55,765 nucleotides of DNA from Chromohalobacter sp. 11-W (GTDB lineage Bacteria; Pseudomonadota; Gammaproteobacteria; Pseudomonadales; Halomonadaceae), in the NCBI RefSeq assembly GCF_029889905.1, contig NZ_JARANZ010000016.1, forward strand, positions 1-55,765. Direction: 5' to 3'. Made by a program: the position numbers and the translations under genes. The notes beneath the pieces were generated by a model, which was given only the letters and a program-made list of their open reading frames with translations, had not been told where the DNA came from and did no database searches. Below, in pieces: positions 38,198-42,785 of the stretch. Every line of letters starts with the position of its first letter. Position 1 is the first letter of the stretch.

Positions 38198-40522
38198 ATG
38201 ACCAGACCATCGTCTCGAACGCGTCGCTACTGGCTTGGGGGCAAACGCGCCGACGAGCAGGACCGTTTCTTCCGCGAGGCACTCGAAGCGCGCGGCTGGA
38301 GAGCAGGCAATGCTGAGGACTGGCAAGCGGGCTGGTTCACCGGCACCCCCGACATGGCGCAATTTCTCAAGCTGACGCCAAGGCACCGGCTCAATCATCT
38401 GCCCGGCAACAATGCGCTGACGCTGAAAAGCCGACTTTATCAATCGCTGGCGACACTACGCGAGCGAATGAGCGAGCGCTTCGGCCCGCATTCGTCACAG
38501 GTCGCGCGACTCGACTTCTTCCCGCGTGCCTATCTCATGCCCGATGATTACCACGCTTTGCAGGAGGCCGCTCTGGCCGATCCGGCACAGCGCTGGATCC
38601 TCAAGCCCACCAACGCTTCCAAGGGCAAGGGCATTCGCCTTCTCGACGATGCCGCCGACGCGCCCCGGCACGCCAACTGGCTGGTCCAGGAATATCTCGA
38701 CGACCCGCATACCATCCGTGGTCATAAATACGTCCTGCGCCTTTACGTGCTGCTGGCATCGCTCGACCCCCTGCGCCTCTACGTCTATCGGCAGGGCTTC
38801 GCCAAGCTGGCGTCAGCCCCCTACGATCACGACGATACCGGCAACCTCTACAGCCATCTCACCAACCCCGACATCAACGCCCACAACACCGATGCCGAGG
38901 TGCCTGTCGAGTTCATCGACTTGGAGCGCTACCGCGCGTGGCTTCGCGAACAAGGGCATGATGACGACGCCTTGTTCGAACGCCTCCACGACCAGTTGAC
39001 GCTCACCGTCATTGCAGCCATGGACAGTTTTCGCCAGCGCTGTGCCGAGGACGATATCGATAGTCGCGGCGGCTATGAATTGCTGGGTATCGATTGCCTG
39101 ATCGACGCCGACCTCAAGCCCTGGATACTCGAATGCAACCTGAGTCCCTCATTGGGCGTTTGCGCTGGCCCCGACAGCGGTGGACCGCTGGAGGAAGCCA
39201 TCAAGAGGCGCTTGGTCGAGGACATGGTCGAGCTAGTGGATATCGATGGCCATAAGGTCCCGACAGCCAACGACGAGTCACACTGCGCCGTGCTTGACGA
39301 TACCCAACGCGAGCTGGCTCGCGCCGGGGATTTTCTGCGTCTTTACCCGAGCGCGACGCCCGCTGACTACCTGGCGTTCTTTACCCTGCCCAGCCGCCAG
39401 GATTGGCGACTGGCCGACGCACTGGGTGCACAAATCCCGGCCGGTCCCCAGCTGCAACGCGGCAATGTTTGCGAGTTGATCGATAACGACTGCCTGGCAC
39501 TTTATGACACACAGCACGGAAGTTTGCTCTCGCTCAACGACAGTGCCGCGCTTATCTGGCTGCTGGCGAGCGAGGGCGAGACCCCAAATGCCATCGCCGA
39601 TCATTTGTATCAGGCCAGCCAGATCGGCCACACACCGCCTGACCGCGACGCCCTGGAGCGCCACGTCTGGCAGTGCCTGGGGGATTGGTGCCGCCAGGGA
39701 CTGCTGCAACAAGCACCGGTATACCAAGGCACGCCCTCACTGCACACCGTCCCGGCTCACGCGACTGCCACGACCGTGACACCGGCCTGTTTTTCCGTGG
39801 CAGGGCACGCCTGGGCCTTGCATACCGATAGTTCACCGGCACTGGCCCGTCTAGCGGGCGCGCTCACGTTACCGGAACCCCCCGAGGACCGGGCGTTGAC
39901 GCGCATCGAACTGATCCAGGAGGCCTGTGGCTACGGCATCATGATCGGTACGGACCGGGTGGCCTCTCATCTCGGCCTCGCCGAGCTCGGCCCCCGCTTG
40001 ATCGACGAGCTCGGTCGACGCGCGCTCGCCGAGGATCAGATGCTGATCGACACCGCGCTCCTGGTTCATCTCGATGCGCCCGATGCGGCCATTCTCGTGG
40101 CCATGACCGATGATGACTGGCAACCACTGCGCGCCCTGGTCGAACCGCTCGGCTACCGCCTGATGCGTGGTCTGGCCTGGCACCGTCAGGCAGGCGACCG
40201 AGTCCGGATGTTGACACTCCCCTTGGCCGCCCCTGGGGGACGACTCATCGCTCCCTCGCCCTGCCCGTCGCCCGAGCTGCACATCGTCGGGGCAGCGCTA
40301 TGCAATGACGATACGACCGAGCCGATCCCGATTACGCTTCTCGCAACGCTGCTGCCGGCATCTCGGTATGCCGACAAGCGCCCGCCTGACGGGCACGACG
40401 TCACCGCACTGCTCGACTGGCTCGCGGCGCTGCCGAGGTTCTCGTTGCCCAGTAGCCATCCTGAGCTGGCGAGAGAGCGCTTGGAAGATGCCACATCGCA
40501 TGCCTTAGCGACCGGATCGTGA
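38198..40522 (+). CDS. Tubulin-tyrosine-ligase-like ATP-grasp domain fused to a PqqD-like domain; candidate peptide-modifying enzyme
   Basis: 774 residues from MTRPSSRTRR (38198, GGGGATAGGGAC upstream). Residues ~105-345 carry TTL/TTLL motifs in order: WILKPTNASKGKGI (133-146), WLVQEYLDDP..IRGHKYVLRLYVLL (161-186), YRQGFAKLA, NLYSHLTNPDIN and YELLGIDCLIDADLKPWILE with Mg-binding E312 and N314. Residues ~415-505 fit PqqD, the RiPP leader-binding fold (LLSLNDSAALIWLLASEGET, GLL at the end). Residues ~530-774 may be a degenerate HprK-like domain; AILVAMTDDDWQPLRALVEPLGYRLM sits where a P-loop would be, but no GxxGxGKS is left. TTL enzymes ligate amino acids to acidic peptide tails; the two small acidic peptides encoded downstream are the likely substrates. 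The exact reaction is inferred. Confidence 0.8.
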   Translation: MTRPSSRTRRYWLGGKRADEQDRFFREALEARGWRAGNAEDWQAGWFTGTPDMAQFLKLTPRHRLNHLPGNNALTLKSRLYQSLATLRERMSERFGPHSSQVARLDFFPRAYLMPDDYHALQEAALADPAQRWILKPTNASKGKGIRLLDDAADAPRHANWLVQEYLDDPHTIRGHKYVLRLYVLLASLDPLRLYVYRQGFAKLASAPYDHDDTGNLYSHLTNPDINAHNTDAEVPVEFIDLERYRAWLREQGHDDDALFERLHDQLTLTVIAAMDSFRQRCAEDDIDSRGGYELLGIDCLIDADLKPWILECNLSPSLGVCAGPDSGGPLEEAIKRRLVEDMVELVDIDGHKVPTANDESHCAVLDDTQRELARAGDFLRLYPSATPADYLAFFTLPSRQDWRLADALGAQIPAGPQLQRGNVCELIDNDCLALYDTQHGSLLSLNDSAALIWLLASEGETPNAIADHLYQASQIGHTPPDRDALERHVWQCLGDWCRQGLLQQAPVYQGTPSLHTVPAHATATTVTPACFSVAGHAWALHTDSSPALARLAGALTLPEPPEDRALTRIELIQEACGYGIMIGTDRVASHLGLAELGPRLIDELGRRALAEDQMLIDTALLVHLDAPDAAILVAMTDDDWQPLRALVEPLGYRLMRGLAWHRQAGDRVRMLTLPLAAPGGRLIAPSPCPSPELHIVGAALCNDDTTEPIPITLLATLLPASRYADKRPPDGHDVTALLDWLAALPRFSLPSSHPELARERLEDATSHALATGS

Positions 40523-40582
40523 CACCCCACGCCGGCGCTCCGCGCCCGGCGTTATCTCATCGTCCCCCAGGAGAACCGACAC

Positions 40583-41011
40583 ATGATGACGTCAGCACTG
40601 AAAGCCTCCGCCTCTCTTCCCCACGCCTCATGGGCGCACTGGCTGCTGCGTGCGGCCATGGCAAGCGTCTTCCTGTACACCGGTGTCGACAAGTTCGCGG
40701 GCGCCGGCATCCAGGGCTTTGCCCAGATCATGGCGCTGCCCTGGATTATCGCTCTGGCCGTCGCCCTGGGCGAGATCGCCGCCGGGGCGCTGATTCTGCT
40801 CGGCGGGCTGGTCGCCGGGCCCGTGGGCGATGCCATCACCCGCGTCGGCGCCCTGTTGGCAGTGCCGATTCTGCTGGGCGCGATCTTCATGGAGCACTGG
40901 GGCCAGTGGCACTTCATGGCCACCGCCAGCCACCCGCTCGGCGGCATGATGTTTCAGGTCACGCTGATACTGATCGCCCTGTTTCTGATGGCCAGGGGCA
41001 ATCACACCTGA
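40583..41011 (+). CDS. DoxX/MauE-like membrane protein
   Basis: 142 residues with four hydrophobic segments. HWLLRAAMASVFLYTGVDKFAG, then GEIAAGALILLGG and GALLAVPILLGAIFMEHWGQW, matches the DoxX family of small quinone- or redox-linked membrane proteins. It starts 60 bases after the TTL-PqqD gene and 44 bases before the first acidic peptide gene. DoxX proteins also occur in other peptide-modification loci, so a membrane redox or anchoring role is plausible. Confidence 0.82.
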   Translation: MMTSALKASASLPHASWAHWLLRAAMASVFLYTGVDKFAGAGIQGFAQIMALPWIIALAVALGEIAAGALILLGGLVAGPVGDAITRVGALLAVPILLGAIFMEHWGQWHFMATASHPLGGMMFQVTLILIALFLMARGNHT

Positions 41012-41055
41012 TCCCGATCATCACCATCCTGGCGACTCACCACGGAGAATACCTC

Positions 41056-41331
41056 ATGACCCAGCATCCACGTCGCACCCTGCTCGATACCCTGTCACGC
41101 GGCATCGCCTACAGCGCGCCGGTCATTGCGGTTGTGGTCGGCGCATCCGCCATCAACGCTATCTATTCCGACCTGACCTCACCCTCGGGCTACTACATGT
41201 TTGCATCGGCTGAGGCCGGCCCCGAGGGCGAGGCAGTCGCGGAAGCTGGTCCCGAAGCAGAGGCAGGCGCTGAGGCTGGGCCGGAAGCAGAGGCCGGCCC
41301 CGAAGCCGAAGCGAGTCCCGAGGCCAATTGA
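41056..41331 (+). CDS. Acidic small peptide 1, candidate precursor for the TTL-PqqD enzyme
   Basis: 91 residues, too short for confident homology. Layout: basic N-terminus PRRTLLDTLSRGIAYSAP (5-22), a hydrophobic stretch to about residue 37, a linker TSPSGYYMFAS, then from residue 52 a tail made only of A, E, G, P, V, S and N, with repeated units such as EAGPEAEA. It shares the pattern R-x-T-L-(L/M)-x-x-L-S-R with peptide 2. Codons of the repeats vary, so the amino-acid sequence, not the DNA, seems kept. GGAG precedes 41056. An upstream frame extension overlaps doxX and is rejected. Confidence 0.78.
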   Translation: MTQHPRRTLLDTLSRGIAYSAPVIAVVVGASAINAIYSDLTSPSGYYMFASAEAGPEGEAVAEAGPEAEAGAEAGPEAEAGPEAEASPEAN

Positions 41332-41401
41332 CGATGCGTCAAGGCCTCTTAGACGGCGGTGCCTCGCACCGTCAACTACTGCAGGAAAAAGGAGTGCAAT
41401 C

Positions 41402-41647
41402 ATGACACTACATGAAAGCAAGCGTCACACCCTGATGGGGCGACTGAGCCGGCAGGTGCTCTACACGACACCCATGCTACTGCTGATGTCCGCGCCGCTC
41501 GCCGCTCAGGCCGTCGCTGACGATGCCGTGGGTACCGGCAGCTATACCTCGCTGCAAGGCGGTGCCCCGCTCATGGCGAACGCCGAAGGCGAGGCAGAAG
41601 GCGAAGGAGAGGGGGAAGGAGAAGCCGAGGGCGAAGGTAGCGCCTGA
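41402..41647 (+). CDS. Acidic small peptide 2 with tubulin-tail-like C-terminus
   Basis: 81 residues with AAGGAG seven bases upstream. Layout: KRHTLMGRLSRQVLYTTP (7-24), hydrophobic LLLMSAPLAAQAVA with a possible signal-peptidase site after AQA, GTGSYTSLQGGAPLMAN, then a tail from 61 in which Glu alternates with Gly or Ala (nine Glu in about 19 residues, ending EGEGSA). This closely recalls the alpha-tubulin tail (EGEEEGEEY), the natural TTL/TTLL acceptor. Its N-terminal half is paralogous to peptide 1, giving a probable recognition element for the PqqD domain. Confidence 0.8.
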   Translation: MTLHESKRHTLMGRLSRQVLYTTPMLLLMSAPLAAQAVADDAVGTGSYTSLQGGAPLMANAEGEAEGEGEGEGEAEGEGSA

Positions 41648-41718
41648 CATCCCCCACCACGGGGCGCGAGGTCGTCCATGGCCTCGCGTCCTGACTTGCC
41701 CCAACGGGAGTATGCGTC

Positions 41719-42273
41719 ATGTCCACCCCTGCGTTGAACGCCTTGCTGGAGGAAGCCGCCGATACCCTGCGATCGTTGGCGACATTCGTGGCAACGCTGC
41801 CGGCGGCTCAGTACACCGCGCCACATGGCGCGGATGCCAGGCACTCCATCGGCAAGCATGTCCGACATATCCTGGATCACTACGAGGCGCTATTGGCCGG
41901 GCGATACGATGCCCAGGCCTTCACCATCGATTACGAGCATCGCCAACGAGACCCTGATCTCGAACGACACCCAGAAGTCGCGCGCGAGCATCTGCATCAC
42001 CTGCGCGAGCGCCTGACCCGACTCTGGCAACGCGATACGGCCACGCACCGCCTCCAACTGACATATCGAGCCGGCGACCACATGTTCCCCTTGAACACCA
42101 GCGTCGAGCGCGAACTGGCCTTCTTGAACAGTCACGCCATTCATCACATGGCGATCATCGCCTTACTCGCCGACACTCAAGGTATCGAGGTCGCCGAGAC
42201 GTTCGGCGTACACCCCTCGACACAGCGTCATTGGCAAAATAGCCGCCCATCACACCATGAGGTGACATCATGA
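41719..42273 (+). CDS. DinB/YfiT-like metal-dependent four-helix protein
   Basis: 184 residues of the DinB-like superfamily: a helical bundle with a metal site formed by HVRHILDHYEALL (H47, H50, H54) and HAIHHMAIIALL (H139, H142/143). Members are often thiol S-transferases (bacillithiol/mycothiol type). It follows peptide 2 by 71 bases and its stop overlaps the next start, so it is in the same operon. A role in modification or detoxification linked to the peptides is inference. Confidence 0.8.
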   Translation: MSTPALNALLEEAADTLRSLATFVATLPAAQYTAPHGADARHSIGKHVRHILDHYEALLAGRYDAQAFTIDYEHRQRDPDLERHPEVAREHLHHLRERLTRLWQRDTATHRLQLTYRAGDHMFPLNTSVERELAFLNSHAIHHMAIIALLADTQGIEVAETFGVHPSTQRHWQNSRPSHHEVTS

Positions 42274-42785
42274 AATCCCCGTTTCCCACCTCCCTTTGCC
42301 TCGTCCTGGCGCTCACATTGGCAGCCTGGGTATCGCCCGCCATGGCCGACACCCATTGGCCGCAGAAGGACTGGCACGTGATACCCACCGAACAGCGTTA
42401 CAGCGCGCTGCTCGAGCATCTCAAGAGTGCCGTAGAGGCTAACGACATGGGTATCGTTACCGATGTTGGGCCGACCCAGGCCGCTGCCCAACGGGGTGTT
42501 GAGATTCCCGGTAACCGCGTCGTCGGCGTGTTTCGCAACGACTTTGCGGTCGATATTCTACGCTTGAGCGTACCGGCGATGATCGAGGCACCGATCCGCT
42601 TTTACGTGACCGAAAACCAAGATGGCACCGCGACGCTGGCTTGGAAACGCCCCAGCGCGATATTTGCGCCATATATAGCGCGTATCGACGATCCTGCCCG
42701 GGCCGAGTCATTGGCAGGCATCGCCGATAAGCTGGATACGATCTTCACTGACATCGCCGAAGTAGCTACCGCAAAAAGGCCGTGA
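42270..42785 (+). CDS. DUF302 periplasmic protein
   Basis: 171 residues with a signal peptide ending near AMA-DTHWP. The DUF302 core is seen in LKSAVEANDMGIVTDVGPTQAAAQRGVEIPGNRVVGVFRND and IEAPIRFYVTE. The start overlaps the dinB-like stop (ATGA). DUF302 proteins are small periplasmic dimers of unknown function, sometimes linked to redox stress. Last gene of the six-gene operon. Confidence 0.82.
   Translation: MKSPFPTSLCLVLALTLAAWVSPAMADTHWPQKDWHVIPTEQRYSALLEHLKSAVEANDMGIVTDVGPTQAAAQRGVEIPGNRVVGVFRNDFAVDILRLSVPAMIEAPIRFYVTENQDGTATLAWKRPSAIFAPYIARIDDPARAESLAGIADKLDTIFTDIAEVATAKRP

Follow-up and report, generated by a model that had tools for sequence, protein, structure and literature searches.

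A TTLL-type ligase with a PqqD-like domain as a candidate leader-guided modifier of glutamate-repeat peptides and haem proteins in Chromohalobacter and its relatives

What does a tubulin tyrosine ligase-like (TTLL) enzyme modify in a bacterium? The question is raised by a gene in a stretch of Chromohalobacter sp. 11-W DNA, positions 1-55,765 of contig NZ_JARANZ010000016.1 (assembly GCF_029889905.1), referred to here over its full 55,765 nucleotides as the window. The gene is the sole match to PF03133 (TTL) in the 3.66 Mb genome holding the window, and the closest named relative among the loci compared is Onishia taeanensis (84% enzyme identity). An initial annotation, made from the window's sequence, had proposed that the enzyme ligates amino acids to acidic peptides bound through a PqqD-like domain. 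We find a conserved genomic partnership between the enzyme and proteins with alternating-Glu repeats. The enzyme is probably a leader-guided glutamylase (or glycylase) that would add an amino acid to the Glu side chains of these repeats in exported peptides and haem proteins. The features on which this reading depends are as follows.

38198..40522 (+): TTLL-PqqD enzyme, 774 aa (PF03133, E 1.1e-54; PF05402, E 2.6e-5; AlphaFold2 model; Foldseek)
38384..39232 (+): TTL ATP-grasp ligase domain, residues 63-345 (PF03133; K136, D299, E312 and N314 invariant)
39497..39706 (+): PqqD-like domain of the type found in recognition elements (RREs) for ribosomally synthesised and post-translationally modified peptides (RiPPs), residues 434-503 (PF05402; profile match to lasso RREs; model)
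39779..40519 (+): C-terminal domain of the enzyme, approximately residues 528-774 (weak phosphoenolpyruvate carboxykinase (PEPCK)-like fold by structure prediction and Foldseek)
41056..41331 (+): precursor peptide 1, 91 aa (leader profile, E 1.3e-19)
41110..41121 (+): YxxP motif of the peptide 1 leader, Y19-P22 (leader alignment)
41212..41328 (+): Glu-rich repeat of peptide 1, PEAEAG type, 12 Glu
41402..41647 (+): precursor peptide 2, 81 aa (leader profile, E 2.8e-18)
41462..41473 (+): YxxP motif of the peptide 2 leader, Y21-P24 (leader alignment)
41585..41644 (+): E-A/G dipeptide repeat of peptide 2, 9 Glu

The leader profile was built from 24 rows that include both window peptides. The two short peptides with Glu-rich tails described initially are present beside the enzyme gene; they had been placed directly downstream of it, and a DoxX gene (40583-41011) intervenes.

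The TTL profile matched residues 63-345 of the window enzyme at 186.1 bits against a cut-off of 20.1. In an alignment of 47 enzyme homologues, K136, D299, E312 and N314 were conserved in all 47 sequences, and we take these residues to belong to the ATP-grasp site. The full TTL/TTLL motif set initially reported, with its E312 and N314, is borne out by the profile match and this alignment. A profile search of the Protein Data Bank (PDB) using the 47 sequences returned TTLL6 (4e-64), TTLL7 (2e-53), TTLL11 (2e-30), 5vlq (1.2e-17) and TTL (1.6e-15). The 5vlq entry is labelled LOC100158544 protein and is presumably the glycylase TTLL3. An AlphaFold2 model of the enzyme had a mean predicted local distance difference test score (pLDDT) of 87, and Foldseek placed TTLL6, TTLL7 and TTLL11 chains at ranks 1-21. 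The best match was TTLL6 6vzu (E 9.9e-29), and template modelling scores to TTLL6 chains, normalised to target length, reached 0.82. The enzyme is thus of the TTLL6-like polyglutamylase type, rather than the TTL (tyrosine ligase) type (4e-64 vs 1.6e-15). TTLL glutamylases have a microtubule-binding helix-loop-helix behind the catalytic domain; similarity to TTLL6 runs to profile position 396, beyond the PF03133 match. Residues 508-774 (39719-40519), modelled alone, had a pLDDT of 92; Foldseek returned weak matches with PEPCK-type folds first (best E 4.8e-3), and no Pfam family matched this C-terminal domain up to an E-value of 1.

We then considered the residue types at C179, Q180 and H362 of TTLL6, which we assume separate initiating from elongating enzymes among glutamylases and glycylases alike. 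In the 47 homologues, the C179 equivalent is Ser in 43 and Ala in 4, the Q180 equivalent is Lys in 27 and Arg in 20, and the H362 equivalent is Leu in all 47. The Gln of TTLL6-type elongases is not present, and the window enzyme carries the signature K142/L315. An engineered TTLL6 (PDB 6vzq) has A-R and I at the C179-Q180 and H362 places, and the title of PDB 6vzr describes engineered TTLL6 bound to an initiation analogue. Q180 is reported to be the primary determinant of TTLL6 elongase selectivity, and TTLL6 and TTLL11 are also able to extend main chains (PMC12366701, in excerpt). By sequence, the bacterial enzymes resemble TTLLs that initiate branches. Glycylases and glutamylases are not told apart by the K142/L315 signature, because TTLL-family glycylases presumably use the same initiation and elongation residues. 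The same partnership might accordingly involve a glycylase that adds Gly to the Glu side chains, a reading on which the Gly/Ala-rich repeats give no hint either way. The match to 5vlq is much weaker than that to TTLL6 (1.2e-17 vs 4e-64), and we consider a glycylase unlikely, at perhaps one chance in several.

The second domain that had been claimed, a PqqD-like region at approximately residues 415-505, was located by PF05402 at residues 434-503, with 24.9 bits just above the cut-off of 23.4. Both profiles named in the initial annotation, PF03133 and PF05402, therefore match the enzyme. The AlphaFold2 model of this region shows short strands followed by three helices, and the enzyme-family profile matches the lasso RREs TbiB1 (7.6e-5) and TfuB1 (9.1e-4) in the PDB. 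Nearby precursors combine a conserved leader with a variable core. The leader consensus is LLxxLxxxxxYxxPxL, and M1, L9, L13 and P22 are invariant across 24 aligned leaders. Ninety-eight leaders, after one unrelated match was dropped, were read for YxxP: the position three before the leader Pro is Tyr in 77, Val in 10, His in 7, and another residue in four single cases. YxxP is a characterised recognition motif of lasso-peptide RREs, and RREs fused to many other domains are already known (PMC12710340, in excerpt). A hydrophobic stretch with AxA-like sites follows YxxP in the four peptides analysed by hydropathy, consistent with a signal peptide or membrane anchor. No lasso cyclase or B2 protease family was found among 18 Pfam-scanned genes, in which no search aimed at these families was made.

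To place the partnership in a wider context, the best 80 of 88 relatives were compared; many are Halomonadaceae, and their loci are not independent. An open reading frame (ORF) with the leader and an alternating-Glu repeat was found by profile on the fetched DNA of 75 of these 80 loci, and a divergent peptide was recognised by eye in one more (L081), giving 76/80. The initial annotation had held that the proposal would fail if related genomes did not keep the peptides near the enzyme gene; a leader/Glu-repeat gene lies on the fetched DNA in 76 of 80. This conserved neighbourhood, together with the lasso-RRE motif of the leader, supports the dedicated acidic acceptor that had been postulated for the enzyme. 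In L053 and L080 the contig stops in or at the enzyme gene, and for L053, L059 and L064 a partner was found elsewhere in the genome. At most gammaproteobacterial loci the peptide lies downstream on the same strand as the enzyme, and in L063, L071, L073, L079 and L081 its gene is convergent with that of the enzyme. At 12 loci of the Robiginitomaculum/Parvularculaceae type (L054-L058, L060-L062, L065, L066, L069 and L070), a divergent leader-repeat cytochrome adjoins the enzyme start.

Co-occurrence was examined in 121 genomes of the family. The enzyme was found in 19 genomes (8 of the 24 genera in the set), the leader in 19 and both in 18, so that presence or absence of the two agreed in 119/121 genomes, 101 of which had neither. 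A Fisher test that treats the genomes as independent gave p 3e-19, a value that overstates independence because the genomes are related. Across 398 phylum genomes, whose first-pass survey scored at most 2 and 18 candidates per genome, enzyme and leader occurred in the same 3, two of which are also in the family set. PF03133 matched in 48 of the 398 genomes; three of these hold the TTLL-PqqD enzyme, and 44 others have matches of E 4.9e-9 or weaker, with partial model coverage among the matches listed. The remaining match, in G442 (8.5e-13; L128 1444-3450), is a 668-aa ORF that by eye looks like another protein, TTL-like in its C-terminal part and preceded by a long N-terminal region resembling a glycosyltransferase. 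Collectively, the genomic link between the enzyme and the leader-repeat genes is strong, and we regard the partnership itself as close to certain.

The partner ORFs are not all small peptides. A CxxCH c-type haem motif is present in 32 of 97 partner ORFs (window included), and because of these haem-bearing partners the acidic repeat is often internal. The acidic stretch is therefore not always a tail, as had first been thought, and side-chain modification of internal Glu residues fits better than C-terminal ligation. Three haem partners that were scanned are SoxA/TsdA-like (PF21342, 1.5e-9 to 5.4e-8). In two Pararhodobacter genomes, the leader and a Glu repeat are fused to a Cytochrome_P460-like domain, below the Pfam cut-off, at a distance from the enzyme gene:

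L142, 1447-2418: Pararhodobacter leader-repeat Cytochrome_P460-like fusion
L143, 1327-2394: Pararhodobacter leader-repeat Cytochrome_P460-like fusion

These partners bear on whether the enzyme could instead be a TTL-like ligase that joins one amino acid to the peptide C-terminus, as tyrosine is joined to tubulin. That analogy was drawn initially, and 7 of the 65 non-haem partner ORFs do end in Tyr, like tubulin. However, the last residue of these 65 varies (G 36, Y 7, S 6, E 5, N 5, T 3, A 2, Q 1), and in the haem partners read the haem domain follows the repeat. The closest relatives of the enzyme are also TTLL glutamylases and not TTL, although, as noted above, TTLL6 and TTLL11 can extend main chains. 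We consider C-terminal ligation improbable.

The repeats themselves are highly regular. In 95 distinct repeats, E-to-E spacing is exactly 2 in 86% of cases compared to 24-25% in three shuffles, and adjacent E make up 1.5% compared to 43-45% when shuffled; the repeat ORFs were preselected for alternating E, which inflates these statistics. Their Glu codons are mixed (GAA 988, GAG 501). ATP-grasp ligases can form lactam or ester cross-links from Glu side chains inside a single peptide, as they do in graspetides (PMC8939145, in excerpt), and Lys is present in Marinobacter and some alphaproteobacterial repeats. Pooled over the 95 repeats, however, nucleophiles are few (K 5%, S 1%, T 0.2%), the enzyme is a TTL-family member, and the main text of the graspetide survey contains neither 'tubulin' nor 'TTL'. 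A graspetide-like reaction is thus very unlikely.

We searched the 121 family genomes for the SoxA/TsdA-like domain with one Halomonas sequence and found the cytochrome in 23, of which 11 have the enzyme and 12 do not; at the threshold applied, none was found in the genome of the window itself. With the enzyme, the cytochrome carries the leader and Glu repeat in 10 genomes and an NPCA cysteine repeat in one (G008). Without it, nine have the NPCA repeat, G118 has the Glu repeat, G020 has a short form without a repeat, and the N-terminal form in G117 was not readable. DUF6969 (PF22308) occurs in 11 of the 121 genomes, all among the 23, namely the nine enzyme-less NPCA genomes, G117 and G008. In the 10 NPCA loci that were fetched (L168-L177; e.g. 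L170 near 6729, minus strand), the DUF6969 gene is adjacent to the cytochrome. The substrate-binding-protein gene flanking the window locus recurs in 10/12 fetched loci (7/9 NPCA loci lacking TTL) and its APH-like gene in 7/12 (5/9). Since the repeat type tracks the enzyme or DUF6969 on the same cytochrome, Glu repeat/TTLL and Cys repeat/DUF6969 appear to alternate as N-terminal modules of this haem protein.

Contig C50 of G008 (185-2672 and L177) carries both modules approximately 10 kb apart, the TTL gene with a Glu-repeat peptide and DUF6969 with the NPCA cytochrome. Separate NPCA peptides occur in 5 of the 10 NPCA/DUF6969 loci. NPCA repeats and DUF6969 are possibly a second uncharacterised modification system in Halomonadaceae. 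A location of the NPCA repeats beside MNIO/DUF692, as in bufferins, was considered and rejected, the neighbour being DUF6969. Of the 121 family genomes, the 16 with MNIO (PF05114) include none of the 11 that have DUF6969 and none of the 19 that have TTL; the TTL/MNIO non-overlap is weak evidence, as about 2.5 shared genomes would be expected.

The exchange also bears on whether the acidic repeats are ordinary acid-rich spacers of halophiles, with an enzyme that acts elsewhere and merely shares the operon. Many of the hosts are halophiles, and G118 has a leader-repeat cytochrome while lacking the enzyme. Against this stand the agreement of enzyme and leader across the family set, the RRE-type domain with its YxxP leader, and the exchange of the repeat in most enzyme-less genomes. 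We find such a coincidental association doubtful.

Several observations weigh against a leader-guided glutamylase. Acidic low-complexity protein is common in halophiles. At L059 and L064 no partner lies close to the enzyme, and the fetched DNA of L007 and L068 offers just one each, a cytochrome approximately 4.7 kb downstream. The leader profile found no match in the genomes of L080 and L081, the divergent L081 peptide having been seen by eye. The YxxP Tyr is missing from 21 of the 98 leaders, and the repeat of window peptide 1 (PEAEAG) is less regular than the others. In G021 the enzyme is present only as an N-terminal piece (residues 1-205) and the leader profile has no match, and the leader-repeat cytochrome of G118 (L102 1486-2193) stands without any PF03133 match, for which enzyme loss, an assembly gap or an unmodified repeat are possible explanations. 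Finally, sequence does not reveal which amino acid would be added.

Since the enzyme lies beside, and co-occurs with, Glu-repeat peptides and haem proteins, it very probably acts on the E-A/G repeats, and covalent modification of their Glu residues in some form is highly likely. In the leader-guided mechanism that we favour, the PqqD/RRE domain would bind the LLxxLxxxxxYxxPxL leader, which is carried by the short precursors and in relatives also by c-type haem proteins. With ATP, the TTLL-type ATP-grasp domain would then couple an amino acid to the carboxyl groups on the side chains of alternating Glu residues in (E-A/G)n, glutamate being the likeliest choice and glycine the alternative. Side-chain glutamylation takes the largest share of the odds among modifications, with those of Glu and Gly overlapping. 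Because ATP is needed, this step would take place in the cytoplasm. The leader may double as a Sec-type signal or membrane anchor, or lead on into one, and would in this way deliver the decorated repeat to the periplasm, the compartment in which the fused c-type cytochromes have to mature. Binding of metal or protons, or docking of redox partners, is conceivable there for the strongly anionic repeat; for the Glu and Cys repeats alike, such roles on the haem protein are guesses. The closest functional parallel is TTLL5, which glutamylates the Glu-Gly repeats of RPGR (PMC13052805, in excerpt).

The remaining genes of the window locus are as follows.

40583..41011 (+): DoxX-family membrane protein, 142 aa (PF07681, 2.3e-8)
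41719..42273 (+): DinB_2 family protein with conserved His (PF12867, 1e-6)
42270..42785 (+): DUF302 protein (PF03625, 8.7e-6)

Six genes thus occupy 38198-42785 on the plus strand in the order enzyme, DoxX, peptide 1, peptide 2, DinB_2 and DUF302, and because the gaps between them are 60, 44, 70, 71 and -4 bp, we read them as one operon. On its left lie a substrate-binding protein and, by eye, an apparent ATP-binding cassette transporter permease and ATPase; on its right lies the gene resembling aminoglycoside phosphotransferases (APH-like). In 81 clustered loci, with families read from cluster representatives, the neighbours include DinB (57), a sigma-70-family factor resembling extracytoplasmic function (ECF) factors (44), rhodanese (34), a zf-HC2 protein (29) and DUF302 (20), and a further cluster of 15 is DUF302-like by eye. 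The DinB proteins conserve H47, H50 and H54 in 57/57 and H139, H142 and H143 in 56/57, which fits a metal site, and DinB, whose gene comes after that of the peptide in many relatives, could be a second maturation enzyme or an eraser. The ECF-like sigma factor and the small zf-HC2 protein are frequent neighbours (e.g. L009 and L036), suggesting stress control of the system, and a stress-responsive envelope function may be plausible.

The bacterial enzyme shares its catalytic domain, ATP-grasp residues and overall fold with eukaryotic TTLL6, TTLL7 and TTLL11, and Glu-rich acceptors with the TTLL polyglutamylases, including TTLL5 on RPGR (PMC13052805, in excerpt), TTLL5 itself not being among the structures compared. 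Unlike these enzymes, it is fused to a PqqD/RRE-like and a C-terminal PEPCK-like domain and has Lys or Arg in place of TTLL6 Q180; its putative acceptors are haem proteins and small leader-bearing peptides, whose genes mostly adjoin its own. With RRE-dependent RiPP pathways such as those of lasso peptides, the system shares a PqqD-like recognition domain, a YxxP leader and precursors adjoining the enzyme; it differs in its TTLL ligase and in cores that are long E-A/G repeats, also fused to haem domains. Bufferins have DoxX and sigma-factor neighbours. Their precursors are exported, as we infer for the repeat peptides; DUF2282 precursors have Sec signal peptides (PMC12710340, in excerpt), and bufferins, which are modified by MNIO/DUF692 (multinuclear non-haem iron-dependent oxidase), chelate copper (PMC12452194, in excerpt). 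In contrast to bufferins, the repeats have Glu in place of Cys, PF05114 has no match in the window's genome, and none of its 16 family genomes is among the 19 with TTL. The NPCA/DUF6969 module occupies the N-terminus of the same cytochrome and shares the flanking substrate-binding-protein gene in 7/9 TTL-less loci, but pairs a Cys repeat with the unrelated DUF6969 instead of a Glu repeat with a TTLL.

In the open-licence library searched, we found no description joining TTL with PqqD or with ribosomally synthesised peptides and nothing on DUF6969, and 'tubulin' did not turn up in two RRE surveys searched for it. The parts are of known kinds, and their combination appears undescribed in that literature. 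More tentatively, the system may be what bacteria have in place of a tubulin code, following RiPP logic: a TTLL glutamylase with a lasso-type recognition domain would write branched Glu chains on exported E-A/G repeats of peptides and of periplasmic c-type haem proteins, and Glu/TTLL and Cys/DUF6969 would be two of at least two modified N-terminal modules swapped on the same cytochrome, partly in the same chromosomal neighbourhood.

TTLL chemistry has so far been known as a eukaryotic, mainly cytoskeletal modification. If our reading is correct, a bacterial TTLL that has a leader-recognition domain and substrates of its own encoded alongside would represent a new class of peptide modification, and would provide a small system in which TTLL specificity could be studied without microtubules. 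The exchange of Glu and Cys repeats on the same cytochrome offers a direct comparative handle on the role of such repeats in periplasmic haem proteins.

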